Below, piece by piece: positions 1,528 to 49,947 of a stretch of 64,000 bases of DNA; positions within the stretch are counted from its first letter, which is position 1; every line of letters starts with the position of its first letter. The notes beneath the pieces were generated by a model. The model made no database searches and was not told the origin of the DNA. It saw nothing but the letters and a program-made list of their open reading frames with translations. The translations under genes were made by a program, and so were the position numbers. Source of the DNA: an uncultured Clostridium sp. (GTDB lineage: Bacteria; Bacillota; Clostridia; Lachnospirales; Lachnospiraceae); NCBI GenBank assembly GCA_947178445.1, contig CAMWYJ010000001.1, positions 1-64,000 of the forward strand, written 5' to 3'.

Positions 1528-2259
1528 CTATTTTATCTTAATGACATTCTCCATGTCATTATAATCAACTTTAAGCTCAATTGTATCTAATGTATCCTTT
1601 ATATTTTCTGAAATCTGGAAAATCAATACTGCCTCCTGGTCTTCATCAGGCTTCACAGATGTCTCTAATGTTCCCAGATCATCCATCAATATTGTCAACA
1701 TTGGATCCGCTGCCTTACTGCCATTACATACAATCCGGTAATCAATTGAACTGTCCAACAGAGATATATCTACTACATCCTCTGTTGTATTGGTCACGTT
1801 AAAGCGGACAACTAAAAGCTTATATCCATTAGATGCCTCTAAATATATGGATTCATCATCTCCATCTGTAGTTGGATACTGATCCATAACCTGGTAATCC
1901 TTAAATGTGATAGATGCTCCTTCAATTCCGACAATCTTTGCAATATCATGCTCCGTTCCAACCGAAACTTCCTCCACCTCTACCGGCTTCTTCTCACTGA
2001 CCCCTTTCTCGGGCTCTTCTGTTTCTTCCTCCGTTGCTGCTTCCTCCTCAGTTTCGGCAGATCCTTCCTCCGTCTTTGCTTCCTGCATACCCTCTGCAAT
2101 ACGATCCTCATAATTCAAATCATACTTTAGCAAAAGCCCCGCAGCATATTCTGCAATCATTGTGGATTGTTCCTCTGTTAAGTCTATTACATCATTACAT
2201 CCTGTCAACATGACACAACACAATATGCCAACAAGGAAACCTTTCATCTTCTTTAACAT
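1528..2259 (-). CDS. Predicted lipoprotein with acidic linker and DUF4352-like domain
   Basis: This encodes a 243-residue secreted lipoprotein: lysine-rich start, hydrophobic stretch, then the lipobox LTGC about 21 residues in, giving a lipidated Cys. An extended Glu/Thr-rich linker (about residues 65-100) is followed by a beta-rich domain with YKLLVVRFNVTN, which resembles DUF4352-type immunoglobulin-like domains (family call is inference). The ATG at 2259 is chosen over an in-frame GTG at 2277 because AGAGGGAAG lies directly before it. The gene runs 10 bases ahead of the CheV-like gene. A dispersed repeat ends about 40 bases upstream. The ligand and role are unknown. Confidence 0.75.
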   Translation of the reverse strand: MLKKMKGFLVGILCCVMLTGCNDVIDLTEEQSTMIAEYAAGLLLKYDLNYEDRIAEGMQEAKTEEGSAETEEEAATEEETEEPEKGVSEKKPVEVEEVSVGTEHDIAKIVGIEGASITFKDYQVMDQYPTTDGDDESIYLEASNGYKLLVVRFNVTNTTEDVVDISLLDSSIDYRIVCNGSKAADPMLTILMDDLGTLETSVKPDEDQEAVLIFQISENIKDTLDTIELKVDYNDMENVIKIK

Positions 2260-2301
2260 AATCTTCCCTCTATTCACTCACAATCATATATATATTCTAT
2301 A

Positions 2302-2436
2302 CATATGTCACCAATTTTCAAAGAAACTTCGTTTGTTGCAATAGTCGCCAAATGTATATACAAGTATCTACGCTTGGCTCGTTATCTGCACAAATTGATG
2401 ACCTGCCCTCTCATCAGCGCAATTCATTATATCACG
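2302..2436 (-). repeat. Dispersed intergenic repeat A, copy 1
   Basis: About 130 bases match 51231-51364 almost perfectly; within the core I see only an A/G change, a one-base indel and one more substitution. Shared landmarks are ATGTCACCAATTTTC at one end and CAAATGTATATACAAGTATC in the middle. Both copies have the same orientation and both end about 40 bases upstream of a minus-strand gene (here the lipoprotein, there hisC). A short reading frame runs through both copies but has no ribosome binding site, so I treat the unit as non-coding. A leader element, mobile promoter or MITE are all possible. Confidence 0.85.
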
Positions 2437-2450
2437 AATTATTCTCAACT

Positions 2451-3998
2451 TCAACATTTTTCACCATTGTTGTTATGTTGCTTTGCAAGCTCTAATTCAA
2501 AATAGAACACAACACCTTTATCTTTATTGTAGGCACCAAATGCTCTGCCGTGCTGTTTCATAGTCGCCGCCACAATAGACAAGCCAATACCACTTCCTCC
2601 ATATTCCCGTGTTCTGGCCTTATCCACCTTATAAAACTTAATCCATATTTTTTCCAATTCTTCTTCTGGAATTGCATTCCCTTCATTGTATACATTGATT
2701 CGCACCAAATCATCCCGCTCTTCTATTGAAATGAATACATTCCCTTCTTCATTGGCATAATGTATCGCATTTACCAGATAATTTGTATAAACTTCTTCAA
2801 TCATAAATTCATCTGCCCATACATACAAAGCTTCTTCATATGGAAAGTGAAGATACACATGATTTTGCTGTAATAAAATATCGGAAGAAGCATTGATATT
2901 TCTCATAAGCTCAATCAAATCAAAGCGTTCAAAATTCACTTTGTTTGTACCAAATTCCAGTTCATTTAGAGTGAGAAGCTTTTTGACCATAGTATTCATG
3001 CGGTCAGCCTCGTCCATAATTACCTCACAGTAAAATTCCCGGCTCTCCACATCATCTGATATATTTTCTTTAAGCCCCTCTGCATATCCCTGAATCAATG
3101 CAATTGGAGTCTTTAATTCGTGGGAAACATGTGATAAAAACTCTTTCCGCATTTCATCAATTTGGATTTTTTCTTCAATATCCTTTGTCAGCTTGGCATT
3201 TGCTGTCTTTAACTCAGAAATCGTAGCCTCTAATTCCTTTGACATAGCGTTAATACTGTTACCAAGCTCTCCGATTTCATCCTTTGATTTGCTCTCAACC
3301 TTTGTATCAAAATCAAGCTGCGCCATCCTCTTTGCAGCTACTGCCATCTCGTGAATTGGGCGCACATAGTAGCTACTGGCAAAAAACATGGCAAGACAAC
3401 CCACAATAATGGCAGCAATTCCCACATATACATATAAATGCATAGTGGCGATAACACTTTCATTAAATCGGGTTGCAGAAGACCGAAGCGCAATCAGACT
3501 TCCATCATCTAGTACACCTACTAAATCAAAAAAAGTCTCATTCATCTCCTCATCATAATTCTGATGAAATATGGAATATCCATTTCCACTATCCGAGAAA
3601 AAACTCTCTAAATCCTTCTCTCCTGTTCCATCAAGTAACTGTGCAATCGCCTGCATGCTTTCCCACATCTGACTCTCCGGATTGGTATTGCTGTAAATTT
3701 TGCTTATCCCATCTTCGTCTACATGAAGAACAAAAATGCTAATTTCACCCCTTGCAGCCAGTTTTGACAAATGTTCCTTAATCTGGATTTCATTAAGGCC
3801 TTCCGTGTTAAACACACCATTAATCTCATTATACATATTCTGCATACGATCCTGCAGTTCACCTAGAAAATATGTTTTCACAAATAATTGCGTTGTACAA
3901 ATTGAGACAAATACCGTCAATGTCATCATAATCATTAACAGCATCGTTAATTTAAAACGCAATGAATGCTTATACCGACTAATCATCTCACACTCCAT
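2451..3998 (-). CDS. Sensor histidine kinase of a two-component system
   Basis: Order of parts: a membrane helix at about residues 15-38, an extracellular sensor region of about 150 residues, a second helix at about 185-207, a HAMP linker (YYVRPIHEM to EIGELGNSINAMS), a HisKA domain with the phospho-acceptor His near 293 in HVSHELKTPIA, and a HATPase domain with N-box NYLVNAIHYA and G-box GSGIGLSIV. It should autophosphorylate and pass phosphate to the OmpR-type regulator encoded upstream at 4162-4842. The ATG at 3998 is used, though an ATG at 3986 preceded by GGAGTG is equally possible. The gap to the regulator gene is 163 bases and holds two competing hairpins. The stimulus is unknown. Confidence 0.92.
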   Translation of the reverse strand: MECEMISRYKHSLRFKLTMLLMIMMTLTVFVSICTTQLFVKTYFLGELQDRMQNMYNEINGVFNTEGLNEIQIKEHLSKLAARGEISIFVLHVDEDGISKIYSNTNPESQMWESMQAIAQLLDGTGEKDLESFFSDSGNGYSIFHQNYDEEMNETFFDLVGVLDDGSLIALRSSATRFNESVIATMHLYVYVGIAAIIVGCLAMFFASSYYVRPIHEMAVAAKRMAQLDFDTKVESKSKDEIGELGNSINAMSKELEATISELKTANAKLTKDIEEKIQIDEMRKEFLSHVSHELKTPIALIQGYAEGLKENISDDVESREFYCEVIMDEADRMNTMVKKLLTLNELEFGTNKVNFERFDLIELMRNINASSDILLQQNHVYLHFPYEEALYVWADEFMIEEVYTNYLVNAIHYANEEGNVFISIEERDDLVRINVYNEGNAIPEEELEKIWIKFYKVDKARTREYGGSGIGLSIVAATMKQHGRAFGAYNKDKGVVFYFELELAKQHNNNGEKC

Positions 3999-5617: not shown

Positions 5618-5624
5618 TCCTGAG

Positions 5625-5966
5625 TGGACCTGGCGGGAATCGAACCCGCGTCCGAAGACTCTTCCATCATGGCATCTCCCATTACAGTCGCTTTACTGAC
5701 ATTCCCTCAAACTGCCGCCAACCGACAGGCTGCAGCCCTTAGTAGCTTCATAAATCTTTTGACAAGTCAAAGCTTTCCTGCCAAAGTTCCCCACTGTTTT
5801 GATGCCTTATCCTAAGCCGTGAGTCAACTTAGGTAAGACAGCTGCCATTAGGCAGCGTACGCTAACTTATTGTCTGCGTTTATATTTATTTCCAAGTTTT
5901 TAGATGGTCCTGGTCCATCAATGGCTTCCATAATTTCTAAATCCCCGTCGAAACCAGTACAAGCCC
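5625..5966 (-). ncRNA. ssrA: tmRNA (transfer-messenger RNA)
   Basis: The 5' end GGGCTTG pairs with the 3' end CAGGTCC (two wobble pairs) to form the acceptor stem. TGGTTTCGACGGGGAT, a hallmark of tmRNA, follows the 5' end, and GGTTCGATTCC forms the T-arm near the 3' end. The discriminator A is not followed by an encoded CCA. The tag reading frame is GCA at 5875-5877 to a TAA at 5848-5850 and gives ADNKLAYAA, ending in the usual AA degron. tmRNA with SmpB frees stalled ribosomes and tags the unfinished protein for proteolysis. smpB lies 540 bases upstream on the same strand. Confidence 0.96.
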
Positions 5967-33167: not shown

Positions 33168-34001
33168 TTAAAATCCCACCATATTCAGCAGGTAAATCAC
33201 CATTCCTAATACCACAAAAACCAACACCGACATAATGAATGCTGCCGGACTGCTAAAAGATCCTTTCACGGAAGTGATAACCTCCTTGTCCGCAATAAAG
33301 ACAAAATAAACCACACATACTATAATAAGGATTCCTGCGATGATCTGCAAAACGCTCATCCGGTCTGCAATTAAATCCACATACAAAGAGGGCTCCACCT
33401 TAATCCCCTCTTCTGCAAAGGCAGTCACAATGGATGACAATTCCCCTCTCACTTTATAATCCATCTCACGGACAATTCCCTTCTCCTTTAAGGAAACCAT
33501 CTGCACAGAATCGCCTGCAAACTGCTTGTCCCATTTTTTTGATGCACGGATTGGAACAACATGTTCCCCATCTGGCGAAAACATCAGGTAAAAATGCTCC
33601 GTTCCCGCTGGAATCAGATTGATCGTATGCTTTAATTCACAAAATTCCGGCGATATGTAAGATATCTCCCCTTCATATATGTCACCCTTTGTTAAATTCG
33701 TGAAAGCCTCATCCATAGAATGGGTATTGGCTAAGAAAAGTCCCTTTACACCTGACAGCAGGCACCATAGAGTCAAAGAACCAAATATCAACACAATACA
33801 TGCAATCGAAGCCTTTTCCTTAAAACCCTTTTTTTCAGGCTCTGGCATACTGCTCACATAGGTCTGTTCTTCAAACTGATCCATAAAACCATCATTTTGC
33901 GATTTTTCATATTCTCCAAATTCATCCCTGACATCATCCTGATTCCCCTGCTCCTGATTTAAATTTCTGTTCAACGTTTCATCTGATTGTTTTAACTGCA
34001 T
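33168..34001 (-). CDS. Membrane protein of unknown function
   Basis: A 277-residue protein with an acidic, Gln-rich cytoplasmic N-terminus, one membrane helix at about 65-88, a soluble domain of about 115 residues (IYEGEISYISPEFCELKH; IPAGTEHFYLMFSPDGEHVVP), then two more helices near the C-terminus. The ATG at 34001 follows GGAGGAAAAGAAA and is chosen over one at 34028. It lies between panD and coaBC. I do not recognise the family, and nothing ties it to CoA synthesis except position. Confidence 0.7.
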   Translation of the reverse strand: MQLKQSDETLNRNLNQEQGNQDDVRDEFGEYEKSQNDGFMDQFEEQTYVSSMPEPEKKGFKEKASIACIVLIFGSLTLWCLLSGVKGLFLANTHSMDEAFTNLTKGDIYEGEISYISPEFCELKHTINLIPAGTEHFYLMFSPDGEHVVPIRASKKWDKQFAGDSVQMVSLKEKGIVREMDYKVRGELSSIVTAFAEEGIKVEPSLYVDLIADRMSVLQIIAGILIIVCVVYFVFIADKEVITSVKGSFSSPAAFIMSVLVFVVLGMVIYLLNMVGF

Positions 34002-34034
34002 TTTCTTTTCCTCCTCATTCTTATACATTTCAAT

Positions 34035-34095
34035 TAGGTAATTGTGAAACTCAATTTTCTCTTTCTTTCGTTATACAACTTATACAATCCAGCTC
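34035..34095 (-). mobile_element. Truncated MITE-like element B, copy 3
   Basis: TAGGTAATTGTGAAACTC followed by TTTCTTTCGTTATACAACTT and ATACAATCCA matches the reverse complement of the right end of the copy at 43482-43691 over about 60 bases. It is thus one arm of the element in opposite orientation. The other arm is missing or too degraded to see; the panD 3' end begins at 34111. Confidence 0.6.
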
Positions 34096-34110: not shown

Positions 34111-34503
34111 TCAAAATCCTGGACTCAATTGCCCATACTTCTCATACCGGGAAACCTGACAAATCTGATTTGCATCGTCCACAAACACCACATACGGTTT
34201 ATGCTCTTTTGCCTCCTCTGTGGTCATCTGGGCATAGGACATAATAATCACATGATCCCCTACCGCCACCTGACGGGCTGCGGCACCATTCAAACAGATC
34301 ATTCCGCTGTGCGGTTCGCCTGCTATGGTATAGGTCTCAAAGCGGTTCCCGTTTTCCACATCCACAATCTGTACATACTCATATTCCAGAATCCCAGCGG
34401 CCTCCATCAGCACAGGATCAACCGTGATACTCCCCACATAGTTAAGCTCCGCCTGTTTTACCACTGCCCGGTGAATTTTTCCCTTCAACATATTCACAAA
34501 CAT
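34111..34503 (-). CDS. panD: Aspartate 1-decarboxylase
   Basis: A 130-residue pyruvoyl enzyme that makes beta-alanine for pantothenate. The self-cleavage site Gly-Ser is visible in [11 protein letters not shown], with Tyr in [13 protein letters not shown] and the NGAAAR loop. Length matches. AGTAGGAGGG lies nine bases before the ATG and overlaps the stop codon of the preceding small membrane protein gene, so the two are translationally close. A tandem duplication lies just upstream. Confidence 0.96.
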
Positions 34504-34517
34504 ATTCTTTTTCCCTC

Positions 34518-34862
34518 CTACTTATACCCTAAAACAAAGTGAAGTGCAATCACGAACAAACTCAACAGCCATAATCCATCTGATTGATAATATTCTTTCA
34601 AAAATTCCTTAAAAGCTGCCCATTTTTTCCATCTTCCAAATATCGCCAGGCATGACATAAACGGTAATAGCAGTAATGCCAAAAAACGGATAACCCAATC
34701 CTCATAAACGAATACGAAGATATAGACTGCTCCCAGATAACATACCCAGTATACTATTTTTTTGATAATTTCCGGAATATCTTCCTTCTTCCACTCCCAC
34801 AGCCGATATCCAACTAAAACAGCAATTATAATAATGGTATATTTAAATTCATCAAAATCCAT
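34518..34862 (-). CDS. Small membrane protein between panC and panD (intact copy)
   Basis: A 114-residue protein with about three or four hydrophobic helices ([68 protein letters not shown]). The sequence is very similar to the broken copy at 34948-35300, including [28 protein letters not shown] precedes the ATG. Its stop TAG forms part of the panD ribosome binding site. Family and function are unknown. Confidence 0.7.
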
Positions 34863-34872
34863 AGAATATCTC

Positions 34873-34944
34873 CTACATAATAATCCGGTTATCGATCAGT
34901 CTTGTGGTTCCGATATATACTGCAATCGCAATCAATACCGCACC
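34873..34944 (-). pseudogene. Duplicated 3' end of panC
   Basis: This reads GAVLIAIAVYIGTTRLIDNR IIM and stop, matching the panC C-terminus (GAVLIAIAVYIGNTRLIDNR ILM) but without the rest of the gene. It is joined to the stop codon and GGAGGG of the upstream small membrane gene copy, so it marks the joint of a tandem duplication. Confidence 0.85.
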
Positions 34945-34947
34945 CTC

Positions 34948-35300
34948 CTACTTATAACTTCCAGCAAAATAAAGTAAAATCACGAGCAGGCTAAACAGCC
35001 ATAATCCATCTGATTTATAGTATTCTTTCAAAAAGTTCTTATCAGCTGTCCAATACCACCCTCTTCCAAATATGAGCTCGACTGATGCATACCAAAACAT
35101 CAGTAGTATTAGCACTAATAACAAGATCCTCATGTGAGAAACGAATGCTAACATTACGAAGCTATAGACTGCTCCCAGATAACATACCAGTATACTATTT
35201 TTTTGATAATTTCCGGAATATCTTCCTTCTTCTTCTCCCACAGCCAGTATATGCCTAAAACAGCAATGAATGCAACGATTATTTTAGTTTTATTATCCAT
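34948..35300 (-). pseudogene. Frame-shifted duplicate of the small membrane protein gene
   Basis: From an ATG at 35300 the frame reads MDNKTKIIVAFIAVLGIYWL and [15 protein letters not shown] like the intact copy. Then one G is missing near 35190 (ATACTGGTATG against ATACTGGGTATG in the intact gene) and the match continues in another frame as CYLGAVYSFVML to YYKSDGLWLFSLLVILLYF. The C-terminal half is open from 35241 but lacks a suitable start. The copy is therefore likely inactive unless rescued by frameshifting. Confidence 0.8.
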
Positions 35301-35310
35301 AAAATATCCC

Positions 35311-36153
35311 CTACATGAGAATCCGGTTATCGATCAGTCTTGTATTTCCGATATATACTGCAATCGCAATCAATACTGCACCTTCAATTTTATCAATCGG
35401 CTGAATATTGTCAAAGCTTACAACCTCTACATAATCAATTTTCGCCAGCGGGCAGGTTTCTAACTTATTTATGATGATTTCCTTTACCTTTTCGGCATCT
35501 TTCTCGCCCACCTCAATCGCCTGAATTGCCTCCTCCAAGGATGCATTTAAAATAACTGCCTGTTTTCGTTCCTCCTCTGACAAATATGTATTTCTCGAAC
35601 TCTTGGCCAATCCGTCTTCCTCCCGGATGATAGGACAGCCGATAATCTCAATATCAAAATCAAGGTCAATCACCATACGGCGGATAATTGCAAGCTGCTG
35701 TGCATCCTTTTGCCCAAAATAAGCTCGGTCTGCCGGAATGATATGAAACAATTTTGCTACAACCGTCTGCACTCCTTTAAAATGCACCGGGCGGCTGGCA
35801 CCGCAAAGCTTCTCCGGCAACACGGTCATATCCACAAAACCATGAAAATCTGGTCCGTACATTTCCTCCACTTCTGGATGAAAAATGAGATCCACTCCGC
35901 CATCCTCACAAATTTTAGAATCTCTCTCCAAATCTCTGGGATAAGTCTCTAAGTCCTCATTTGGTCCGAACTGCATCGGATTTACAAAAATGCTGACAAC
36001 CACCTTGTCATTGTCTTTTCTTGCCCGGTCAATCAGACTTTTATGCCCCTCATGCAAATATCCCATAGTTGGTACCAGCCCAACCGATAACCCCTGTTTC
36101 TTCCATTCCTTTACCTGCTGTCTTGTCTCTTTAATCGAACCTGAAATTTTCAT
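35311..36153 (-). CDS. panC: Pantothenate synthetase (pantoate-beta-alanine ligase)
   Basis: A 280-residue ligase that joins pantoate and beta-alanine with ATP. It has the HIGH-type motif PTMGYLHEGHKSLIDRA, FVNPMQFGPNED, YFGQKDAQQLAIIRRM and the KMSKS-like loop LAKSSRNTYLS. The ATG at 36153 follows AGGAGATATGTACT and is preferred over a start at 36174. Upstream, a MITE-like element separates it from panB; downstream, its last 24 codons are duplicated. Confidence 0.96.
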   Translation of the reverse strand: MKISGSIKETRQQVKEWKKQGLSVGLVPTMGYLHEGHKSLIDRARKDNDKVVVSIFVNPMQFGPNEDLETYPRDLERDSKICEDGGVDLIFHPEVEEMYGPDFHGFVDMTVLPEKLCGASRPVHFKGVQTVVAKLFHIIPADRAYFGQKDAQQLAIIRRMVIDLDFDIEIIGCPIIREEDGLAKSSRNTYLSEEERKQAVILNASLEEAIQAIEVGEKDAEKVKEIIINKLETCPLAKIDYVEVVSFDNIQPIDKIEGAVLIAIAVYIGNTRLIDNRILM

Positions 36154-36184
36154 AGTACATATCTCCTGTCTCAAATTTATTTTT

Positions 36185-36395
36185 TAGGTAATTGCGAAAC
36201 TCTCTATTTCCAAAACCTAGTTGTATAATATAGACAATATCGCAAGCAGGGTACTTTGGAGCCGTCGGTACTTAGGTGCCGTGTTTTGGCACCTTATGTA
36301 CCGTTACGAGCGACAAGTAGCGCAAGCGTGCCCTGCGGTGATTTGTCTATATTGTACAACGGGCATATTGAAAAACAGAGTTTCGCAATTACCTA
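36185..36395 (+). mobile_element. MITE-like element B, copy 1 (between panB and panC)
   Basis: The element is bounded by a perfect inverted repeat: TTAGGTAATTGCGAAACTCT (36184-36203) and AGAGTTTCGCAATTACCTAA (36377-36396). A second inverted repeat lies inside (GTTGTATAATATAGACAAT at 36220-36238; ATTTGTCTATATTGTACAAC at 36341-36360), and a central hairpin spans 36267-36302. ATTTATTTTT flanks both ends, as expected of a target site duplication. There is no coding capacity, so any movement would need a transposase elsewhere. It lies inside the pantothenate gene series and would fold in the mRNA. Confidence 0.8.
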
Positions 36396-36406
36396 ATTTA
36401 TTTTTT

Positions 36407-37234
36407 CTAATACAGCTTCTCTAACACATCATCACTGATTGTATATTCATGCTCTTTTGCCGGAAAGCTTCCCGCCTTTACCTCGCGGTCATACTCTGCA
36501 AATGCATTTTTCATGATTTCACCAATATTCTCAAACCGCTTTACAAATTTTGGAGTAAAATCTGAGAACATCCCCAGCATATCCTGATATACCAAAACCT
36601 GTCCATCGCATATATTCCCTGCACCAATGCCAATGGTTGGAATAGACAGTTCTTTTGTCACCAGCTCTGCCAGCTTTGCCGGCACACACTCTAACACCAC
36701 CGCAAATGCTCCGGCAGCCTCAACTGCTTTTGCATCTGAAAGCAGTTTTTTCGCTGCTGCCTCCGTCTTCCCCTGCACCTTGAAGCCTCCAAAGGCATTA
36801 ATCGACTGTGGTGTCAACCCTAAATGTGCGCATACCGGAATTCCTGCAGCCGTAATCGCCTCAATCTGTGGGCATATCTCGATTCCGCCCTCCAGCTTTA
36901 CTGCACCGGCACGTCCCTCCTTCATCAGCCGTCCCGCATTTACCACTGCATCATACACCGAAGTCTGATAGCTCATAAACGGCATATCTATCACAACCAA
37001 TGCATCTTTTGCTCCTCTTGCCACAGCGGCTCCATGATGAATCATATCTTCCATCGTTACAGAAATGGTATCCTCATAACCAAGCATCGTATTCCCGAGA
37101 GAATCCCCTACCAAAATCATATTGACTCCTGCTTCATCAATCAACTTTGCAGTAGAATAATCATATGCCGTGAGCATGGAAATCTTTTCTCCCTTTTCTT
37201 TTTGTTCTTTTGCTGTTAAAACCGTATTTTTCAT
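36407..37234 (-). CDS. panB: 3-methyl-2-oxobutanoate hydroxymethyltransferase
   Basis: A 275-residue TIM-barrel enzyme that makes ketopantoate from ketoisovalerate and methylene-tetrahydrofolate. Signatures are [19 protein letters not shown], the metal site [43 protein letters not shown] and [19 protein letters not shown] precedes the ATG. It lies between the panG-like gene and panC, with structured repeats in both flanking spacers. Confidence 0.97.
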
Positions 37235-41602: not shown

Positions 41603-43451
41603 TTGACCAAACTGTCACTCATAATCTCCTGGAGGAAACGGGACGGCTCTAACTCCTTATTGTAATATTCCTTTACCTCATAAATATGCAAATGCTCTCT
41701 CGCCCTTGTCATGGCAACATAAAACATACGCCGTTCTTCCTCTATTTCCTCCGGTTTTACCGCCTTTTTATACGGTGCCATTCCCTCGTTTGCCTCCAGC
41801 ATAAATACGGCATCAAATTCTAACCCTTTTGCACTGTGCATAGTAGTCACTGCCACACCTTGCCGTTTTTTTTTCGCCAGCTTTATATGTCTTTCAAATT
41901 CCTCCCGGTACTGCTCCATTCCATCAAACCATTCGCGAAAAGTTTTATACTGCTTCGCCATTTCTTCAAGCTCATCTAACGGTCCAAATAAATCCTCTAC
42001 ATTCAGATGACGGTATGCCGCATACTCCCCCAGATACTCATCATAACCGATTGCCTTCCGTATAAAATGCACTGCCGCATAAGGCTTAAGCCCCTTTAAA
42101 ATTTTCAATTCATATTCCATCTGGTTAATATGATCAACCGCCCATTCTTTTCCAGCAAATGCTTCACGAAGCCCTTCAAAGCTTATGACCGGTTCCGTTA
42201 AAAGCTCCCTTGTAAGATACCGGTTCGGTTTATTGATAATGCGTAGAAACAGGGCTCTGTCCCGAACTCCCATGGCGGCTTGCACATAATCCAATATATT
42301 TTTCACAGTGAAATGATCATACACACAGGGCATCTTATCCTGAAGCTTGAAGGGCACATTATATTCCATCAAACGGTTTACAATCCCCTTGCCTGCACAT
42401 TTGTCCGGACAATCACTGCCATCTCTTCATATTCCACGCCACGTTCATGATATTCCATAATTTGCTTTAGCACATGGGCATTCTCTTCTGCTAATGTCTT
42501 CATATGATGAATATGAACCGGCTCCTCATAGTCCCTGGCACTGACGATATTCTTGTCAAATCTCGTCCGGTTATTTGAAATCAGCCGGACTGCACCCTCT
42601 GTAATATTTCTGCTGCAACGGTAATTTACATCTAAAAAAGTGGTTACCGCATCTTTATAATCATCTTTAAAATGCAGCATGATCTCTGGTCTGGCTCCCC
42701 GAAATCCATATATACTCTGGTCATCATCTCCCACAATAAAAAGATTATTTTCCGGTAACGCAAGCATTTTTGTGATCTCATACTGAATTTTATTGATATC
42801 CTGAAATTCATCAACAAGGATATACCGATACCGTTTTTGAAGTTTTCGCAAAATATCCTTCCGTTCCTTTAAAAGCTCATAGCAATATACCATCATATCG
42901 TCAAAATCCAACTTGCCCATTGATGCCACAGCCTGCTCATACTCCCGGTAAACCTCCCGGAACACTTCCTCCCCAAGACATCCCGAATAGAAATGCTCTA
43001 AGGAAATCATATCCCCCTTCATGGTTCCTATTTCCTGTATAACCGACTGTATAAGCTCATCCTCATCCCCGCATTCAAGCTCCTTTTTACGAATGATACC
43101 TTTAAGCAGATTATATTTCTCTTCCTCCTTCAAAATATTTGATGCCTTATATCCATAAGCGGCCTTTAAAATATAAAAAAATACCGAATGAAACGTTCCA
43201 AAGGTACAGCCACACACCTTCCCTTTCATTAAATTCCAAAACCGCTCCTCCATCTCCTTCGCACTGGCCCTTGTAAAGGTTATCACAAGAATCTGATAAG
43301 GATTGACATGAGCGTTTTCAATCAGATATTTAATTCTGTATACCATAGCAGTGGTTTTTCCAGCCCCGGGTCCTGCTAACGCAATCATAGGACCGTTTAC
43401 ATGCCGGATTGCCTTCTGCTGTCCTTCATTAAAGCGGTGCATCTTCGTCAC
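41599..43451 (-). pseudogene. UvrD/PcrA-like superfamily 1 helicase, interrupted by a frameshift
   Basis: Two adjacent frames make one helicase of about 617 residues. The upstream part (42378-43451) has motif I AGPGAGKTTAM, ITFTRASAKEMEERF, motif II LVDEFQDIN, motif III VGDDDQSIYGFRGA and NYRCSRN, and stops just after VRTNVQARGL. The downstream part (41599 to about 42385) continues IVNRLMEYNVPF and carries motif V TTMHSAKGLEFDAVF and motif VI FYVAMTRAREHLHIYE. One base is missing in a G-run near 42386; a fifth G would restore the frame. It is either a real mutation or a sequencing error. Neither half alone should be an active helicase. Confidence 0.85.
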
Positions 43452-43481
43452 TCTGCTATCCTTTCATATATCTGTAAATAG

Positions 43482-43691
43482 TAGGTGATTGCAAAACTCT
43501 TTTAACTTTATATTATAGTTGTGCAACATATACTATTCCATAAGCAGGTACTTTGGAGCCGTTGGTGCTTACATGCCGTACTTTGGCATGTTATGCACCA
43601 CTACGAGCGACAAGTAGCGCAAGCGTGCCAGCGTTGGATTGTATATGTTGTACAACGAAAGAAACAAAAAATTGCGTTTCGCAAACGCCTA
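43482..43691 (+). mobile_element. MITE-like element B, copy 2 (upstream of the helicase remnant)
   Basis: A 210-base unit beginning TAGGTGATTGCAAAACTC and ending TTTCGCAAACGCCTA. ATCTGTAAATAG occurs directly on both sides (43470-43481 and 43692-43703), a 12-bp target site duplication. The central hairpin (43564-43599) has arms GGTGC/GCACC and CATGCC/GGCATG, where copy 1 has GGTAC/GTACC and GGTGCC/GGCACC. The downstream block TACGAGCGACAAGTAGCGCA is identical in both copies. It has no coding capacity. Confidence 0.85.
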
Positions 43692-43705
43692 ATCTGTAAA
43701 TAGGT

Positions 43706-49860: not shown

Positions 49861-49947
49861 TATGCATTTACAAAACTCATTTTCGAAATATACGTTGTAC
49901 AATATGGACAACAAAGTTTTGAAAACAGGGAGTTTCGCAATTGTCTA
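49861..49947 (+). mobile_element. MITE-like element B, copy 4 (internally deleted)
   Basis: An 87-base unit with left arm TATGCATTTACAAAACTC and CGTTGTACAATATGGACAAC, and right arm GGGAGTTTCGCAATTGTCTA. It corresponds to both ends of copies 1 and 2 with the central hairpin missing. Imperfect direct repeats GTGTTTGCAA (49851-49860) and GTATTTGTAA (49948-49957) flank it, so it is an older insertion. It fills part of the 310-base spacer between the DUF5688 gene and hisC; the rest of that spacer holds the hisC terminator. Confidence 0.65.

Follow-up and report, generated by a model that had tools for sequence, protein, structure and literature searches.

What is the 210 base pair (bp) unit at positions 43,482 to 43,691 of the window, the 64,000-nucleotide stretch of contig CAMWYJ010000001.1 from an uncultured Clostridium sp. 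of the Lachnospiraceae, and why does it lie beside the Shine-Dalgarno-like motif of a gene? Our answer, to which we give a probability of about two in three, is that it is a miniature inverted-repeat transposable element (MITE) of an IS1182-like insertion sequence (IS), that this IS targets the spot 5' of ribosome-binding sites, and that the core of the element is conserved as a fold. The unit, here called copy 2, is antisense to both of its neighbours, a glutamyl/glutaminyl-tRNA synthetase gene and a UvrD-domain gene, and has the following parts:

43458..43465, - strand: Shine-Dalgarno-like GAAAGGAT of the UvrD-domain gene 42378-43451
43470..43481, no strand: left target duplication of copy 2, ATCTGTAAATAG
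43482..43691, + strand: element copy 2, 210 bp, antisense to both neighbouring genes
43482..43499, + strand: left terminal inverted repeat, resembling the right end of the insertion sequence
43528..43654, + strand: structured core, match to covariance model R1 (121.3 bits)
43604..43623, + strand: conserved block CGAGCGACAAGTAGCGCAAG with a GNRA hairpin
43674..43691, - strand: right terminal inverted repeat, reading inward TAGGCGTTTGCGAAACGC and resembling the left end of the insertion sequence
43692..43703, no strand: right target duplication, ATCTGTAAATAG again

The original prediction for this locus, made from the letters of the window, described a 12-bp target duplication, and the two copies of ATCTGTAAATAG indeed abut the unit exactly and without mismatch. 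It also described a central hairpin that differs from that of a first copy in the window (copy 1, listed further below) by changes that keep the pairing, and this is what the sequences contain: GGTAC/GTACC and GGTGCC/GGCACC in copy 1 are replaced by GGTGC/GCACC and CATGCC/GGCATG in copy 2. The block CGAGCGACAAGTAGCGCAAG, said to be identical, is the same in both copies, and none of 100 window shuffles contains a match to it. Placement beside Shine-Dalgarno motifs was absent from that prediction, and we rate it as the more surprising part.

Copies of the element and their landing place

Loci and genomes carry L- and G-numbers, respectively, and "own" refers to the source assembly. The core block has 63 matches in the own genome, and the terminal pattern TAGGTAATTGCGAAACTC has 171 in the assembly with up to three mismatches. 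Sixty own elements could be delimited with both ends; they span 204-345 bp, are non-coding and have paired terminal inverted repeats. By size, 37 measure 204-212 bp, one 245 bp, 11 are 262-266 bp, six 286-295 bp and five 331-345 bp. The longer classes contain a hairpin module of about 55 bp, one of 82 bp or both, sited at hairpin tips, and in the 286-bp case and one 290-bp case the element is paired in tandem with a copy of 65 bp. Sixteen of the 17 matches to the 55-bp module lie within elements already inspected and the remaining one is on contig C37. Coreless copies are also present. Among the fetched own-genome loci, no pair of ends more than 346 bp apart has a convincing duplication; lone and truncated ends were judged by eye. 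The core itself is open to modules: in L132 (near 7750) and L207 (near 1000), the GGA of the conserved TTTGGAGCC strand has given way to hairpins. Variant ends with ATGAGC instead of AATTGC occur in L023, L063, L066 and L099, on both sides in L023, and are perhaps a second end type.

The target duplications of the family are 10-13 bp long. A flanking duplication score of at least 7 was obtained for 35 of the 60 own elements, 20 of them perfect, while six of 1,181 mismatched flank pairs reached it as controls. For elements in other loci, an automatic rule found ends and a duplication for 32 of 86 cores and none for 54.

The flanks have a second regularity. Under a fixed rule, a Shine-Dalgarno motif starts 13-18 nucleotides (nt) outside one end in 40 of the 60 own elements and 24 of the 32 from other loci, compared with 407 of 9,130 random points (4.5%) and 95 of 2,542 AT-rich points in own loci. 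The match to AAAGGAGG is better on one flank in 56 of the 60 own elements; at least six bases match at 49 own sites, and at 31 of these the motif starts 15-17 nt outside the element. Over 145 sites, oriented to the better motif wherever both flanks are known, the frequency of G is highest at positions 20 and 21, counted from the element end (66% and 63%). Across the 99 sites that have a start codon, the motif offset varies less than the start-codon offset (standard deviation 2.4 against 3.3). With open reading frames (ORFs) and starts called mechanically, 30 elements face a start and had 60 bp or more of intergenic space before insertion, and for 15 of them the distance to the start is 24-38 nt; the expectation was 2.9, and 0 of 200,000 simulations reached the observed value. 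This test left out ten of the 60 elements, four without a facing start codon and six without an ORF of 80 amino acids on one side, and 20 further own elements had less than 60 bp of space. At the landing site, one duplication plus about 5 nt part the element from the Shine-Dalgarno motif, which is intact.

Some sites appear to have been occupied repeatedly. In L062 two tandem elements share one site, with TATAAAACTTTT present three times. Upstream of homologues of the UvrD-domain gene, elements with other cores and other duplications occur in G010 (L344) and G014 (L357), and an apparent remnant lies in front of the homologue in G007 (L358). By eye, no element was seen before the homologue in the other 12 of the 15 relatives viewed, including the nearest, G017. 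To us these represent separate insertion events; descent from one ancient insertion, followed by drift, would be a less simple account.

The related insertion sequence

The original prediction proposed to look for a transposase whose ends begin with TAGG, and one was found in full-length insertion sequences of about 1.75 kilobases (kb) in related bacteria, which have the same TAGG...GCGAAAC ends as the element. The IS ends TAGGCGTTTGCGAAACGCC and TAGGTAATTGCGAAACTC are common to MITE and IS; those of copy 2 read inward TAGGTGATTGCAAAACTC and TAGGCGTTTGCGAAACGC. Contig breaks in G220 revealed the left end TAGGCGTTTGCGAAACGCCACAAGCCGCATAAATACGGC, and in L274 a promoter-like stretch and then the start of the transposase frame follow. 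When up to three mismatches are allowed, a pattern made from the IS left end matches 47 of the 299 family genomes.

Eight full-length copies of 1745-1811 bp were identified. Duplications are exact over 12 bp at L313, L314 and L326 and over 11 bp at L330 (same genus); at L329, likewise of the same genus, the repeat is 10 bp long and includes one mismatch. L340 belongs to plasmid pCY360 of Butyrivibrio proteoclasticus, and its flanks form a 14-bp repeat by eye, beyond the range of the script. L341 lies on a plasmid of Roseburia sp. 831b. A plasmid search matched six records, three of them above 60% identity, and a phage collection gave no match.

A motif with at least 6/8 matches stands outside the left end in seven of the eight full-length copies and outside the right end in none; in the eighth, L340, the left end adjoins another IS end. 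Among 53 distinct left-end flanks, 40 have such a motif at an offset of 11-21. The 13 that fail this strict rule comprise ten with a weaker motif at 14-18, the tandem IS copy L276 included, and L301 (motif at 28), L326 (internal false start) and L340 (abutting IS end). In the MITEs the motif is not found mainly on the side of the IS-left-like end, and end type therefore does not account for their orientation.

The protein of the IS is likely a transposase, to judge by its sequence a divergent IS1182-like one. DUF772 scores over the Pfam cut-off in 3/3 proteins and DDE_Tnp_1 in 1/3. The best NCBIfam match is IS1182 (NF033551) in 3/3, with 64.4-77.9 bits (E 9e-18 to 7e-22), far lower than the 270-bit cut-off of that family. 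Pfam and NCBIfam name only IS1182/IS5-like families for it, not Mutator-like ones. A structure model with a mean pLDDT (predicted local distance difference test) of 42 was unusable and was not used, and a match to a solved structure at E 0.18 is not a relative. In the own genome PF01609 has five matches, none with these ends, and they were rejected as candidates for the transposase of the element.

Taken together, the MITE would be a non-autonomous relative of the 1.75-kb IS, with which it shares ends, duplications and landing place. Where the IS has its transposase gene, the MITE has a core whose fold is kept across the family. The IS transposase would choose the site just 5' of the Shine-Dalgarno motif and would also move the MITE in trans, which is the simplest account because the two share ends, duplication length and target.

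The placement could instead be a matter of survival, with wide intergenic insertion and retention of those copies beside intact ribosome-binding sites as the least harmful or helpful. We consider this unlikely. All insertions seen are natural and already filtered, and between tandem neighbours antisense cores outnumber the others by 29 to 9 in own cases and by 20 to 5 in other genera, which suggests some selection on placement; our guess is that this bias reflects avoidance of a stronger fold in the transcript. For survival to explain the sites, the offset at the scored own sites is too narrow, even with large upstream space. Moreover, in the full-length IS the offset is no different and the left end faces the motif in seven of eight copies, and the site in L062 was hit twice.

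Several results weigh against the reading that we prefer, of a MITE moved by a site-choosing IS. A target duplication consistent among copies, as implied by the original prediction, holds for the 35 own MITEs with a clear one and does not extend to the other 25 of 60, at which flank scoring found no clear one; these would fit decay. The flank script found no duplication at the full-length copies L331 and L341 either. No transposase match is present in this assembly, nor in any of the three genomes of the genus sample that are rich in cores (G000, G009 and G025); if the IS was lost, or falls outside a 90% complete assembly, the missing transposase in these genomes would be explained. Conversely, G002 and G008 have no core match although their transposases are intact, and co-occurrence of IS and core is weak (core in 21 of 47 genomes with the IS left-end pattern vs 78 of 252 without, p 0.09). 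Finally, when ends are disregarded, a good outward motif accompanies 13 of 45 cross-genus cores vs three of 45 in the control. Placement is thus not tied to the core as such; it goes with TAGG-ended elements.

The core, its distribution and the rest of the window

Is the core more than filling between the ends? The + strand of copy 2 folds with -81.8 kcal/mol (z score -8.4) and that of copy 1 with -111.8 (z -14.1), while the minus strand of copy 2 gives -67.7 (z -5.4); the + strand has the better fold in 56 of 60 own elements. Covariation was judged by counts of pairs changed on both sides, against shuffled alignments and slid structures. In the 37 own copies of 204-212 bp, a two-sided change is seen at 20 of 59 pairs, compared with a mean of 9.6 in shuffles and no more than 7 in slid structures. 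Across genera, alignment A4 holds 42 of 64 matches, duplicates and long-insert and weaker ones being excluded. In these 42 cores 32 of 37 pairs are changed on both sides (shuffles 25.1, slid at most 26), the covariation score is 0.581 (0.203 shuffled, at most 0.177 slid) and 89% of cells are paired (68% in shuffles, no more than 51% after sliding). Each structure was predicted from the very alignment on which it was counted, which favours it over the slid versions, and the copies are related by descent, so that column and pair counts are not independent.

The architecture is kept in the cross-genus copies while the sequence of the outer stems is free. Core helices pair in 94-100% of cells (98% in helix 4, 100% in a two-pair hairpin whose loop is GNRA in most copies), conserved unpaired bases lie between them, and the outer stems pair in 80-86% of cells. 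Where the commonest pair of a column is Watson-Crick, columns with G.U and with A.C variants number 18:4 in the inner domain (p 0.004), 10:5 in the terminal repeats (p 0.30), 5:1 in the cross-genus core (p 0.22) and 17:15 in the cross-genus outer stems (p 0.86). Because G.U variants exceed A.C in the inner domain, the counts favour folding of one strand, as RNA or as single-stranded DNA, with no distinction between the two.

Pairing preserved over many copies thus supports, for the core, the claim of the original prediction that this is a selected structure rather than a dead repeat. Our preferred view, of low confidence, is that the core acts as RNA in or near gene leaders, where it could make an insertion of 200 nt harmless or useful. 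Of similar standing is the wider proposal that Shine-Dalgarno-directed transposition, through its small derivatives, spreads a family-wide, strand-specific RNA into leaders, where it would act on expression or on its own survival.

That the core is a DNA device, its + strand working as single-stranded DNA or as a cruciform that aids transposition or replication of the element, appears improbable to us. DNA parameters, too, give a good fold of the + strand (z -5.6), and the core lies inside the ends, with no promoter identified for it. On the other side, none of the eight loci with full-length IS copies has a core match at a threshold of E 0.01, coreless copies exist (maybe as later deletions), and a cruciform exposes both strands alike, so that no skew of G.U over A.C would be expected from it.

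Least probable is palindrome correction, in which template switching between the arms restores complementarity and yields compensatory changes without selection: it suits the outer stems, which are free in sequence, well paired and without G.U skew, but it would erase G.U pairs, which are in excess in the inner domain, and the core has its near-complete helices, conserved unpaired bases and GNRA-type loop. No clear skew of G.U over A.C is present in the terminal repeats and outer stems, and such correction could maintain pairing there without selection.

At E 1e-5, the core was found in 99 of 299 family genomes, or 98 of 298 genera, with at most 11 candidates scored per genome. In the class sample (at most 14 candidates per genome, E 1e-6) it occurs in seven of 245 genomes, which are seven of the nine family members, and in none of the 236 genomes outside the family. 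The genus sample is patchy, with the core in seven of 60 relatives at two mismatches. Among the matches listed, named ones are mostly Lachnospiraceae, Clostridium or Eubacterium assemblies, and several labels, such as Bacteroidales, are doubtful.

In other genera, cores are clustered or in inverted pairs within about 0.1-1 kb (L243 at 1712-3891, L262, L228, L240 and L236). TAGG ends were not recognised around them, and these are perhaps other vehicles for the same core. A rule for other ends or duplications around 45 cross-genus cores found none of at least 7 bp; it was too strict, missing the plain TAGG case L219. A ZMP/ZTP riboswitch lies at L237 1733-1835, about 100 nt beyond the core on the same strand.

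Rfam gave no match at gathering score in the window scan, for the element alone (E up to 10) or for 20 cross-genus loci (E up to 1). Relaxed searches gave weak matches to AfaR (E 0.5), mir-31 (E 1.1) and mir-306 (E 0.53), which we take as chance. If our reading is true, about one third of the sampled family genomes would have, in the core, a structured RNA that is absent from Rfam.

The window holds further traces of the element:

36185..36395, + strand: element copy 1, 211 bp, between panB-like and panC-like genes and antisense to both
36163..36169, - strand: Shine-Dalgarno-like ACAGGAG of the panC-like gene
49861..49947, no strand: coreless copy, 87 bp, both ends present, upstream of Shine-Dalgarno-like AAAAGGAG
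34035..34090, - strand: truncated copy with a single end, beside the Shine-Dalgarno-like site of gene 33168-34028

The duplication of copy 1 is 10-12 bp long, with exact ATTTATTTTT at 36175-36184 and 36396-36405. The panB-, panC- and panD-like genes occupy 34111-37234; the MITE separates panB from panC, and a remnant follows downstream of panD. The window also contains a Clostridiales-1 RNA (Rfam RF01699, 52548-52660, 51.8 bits), with no link to the element seen, and a tmRNA gene at 5622-5966 with the tag peptide ADNKLAYAA.

Comparison with known systems

In the accessible portions of the open literature on MITEs, BOX-like repeats, IS1182 and TnGBS targets and structured RNAs, neither the placement nor the core was recognised as described; the IS may already have a name. 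The closest parallel for the placement is with TnGBS, ISLre2 and part of the ISKra4 group, which, according to the available part of PMC3942029, insert 15-17 bp from the -35 box of sigma-A promoters in a fixed orientation. As in TnGBS and ISLre2, which have Mutator-like DDE transposases, distance and orientation are fixed relative to a signal of gene expression; unlike in that part of the source, the signal here is the Shine-Dalgarno motif and the transposase is IS1182-like with DUF772. If true, a fixed landing place next to ribosome-binding sequences would add a class of targets to the sigma-A promoters reported there, and cargo could reach the leaders of many genes with the ribosome site left intact.

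With the IS1182 family the IS shares its best NCBIfam match (64-78 bits). IS1272, a member of that family, is reported in the available part of PMC5678879 to take the place of inverted repeats at its target and to make no target duplications, whereas the IS described here has duplications of 11-12 bp and scores far under the 270-bit cut-off. Pneumococcal BOX elements, as far as the accessible text of PMC3049150 goes, are likewise many-copy, modular, folded intergenic repeats with a possible presence in leaders; by that description their modules are different and no Shine-Dalgarno placement is mentioned.

Prokaryotic MITEs, as presented in the part of PMC10969869 at hand, which includes neither "ribosome binding" nor "Shine-Dalgarno", are also short and non-coding, with inverted ends, target duplications and a stable fold. 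The element goes beyond them in having a conserved branched core that is common to several genera.
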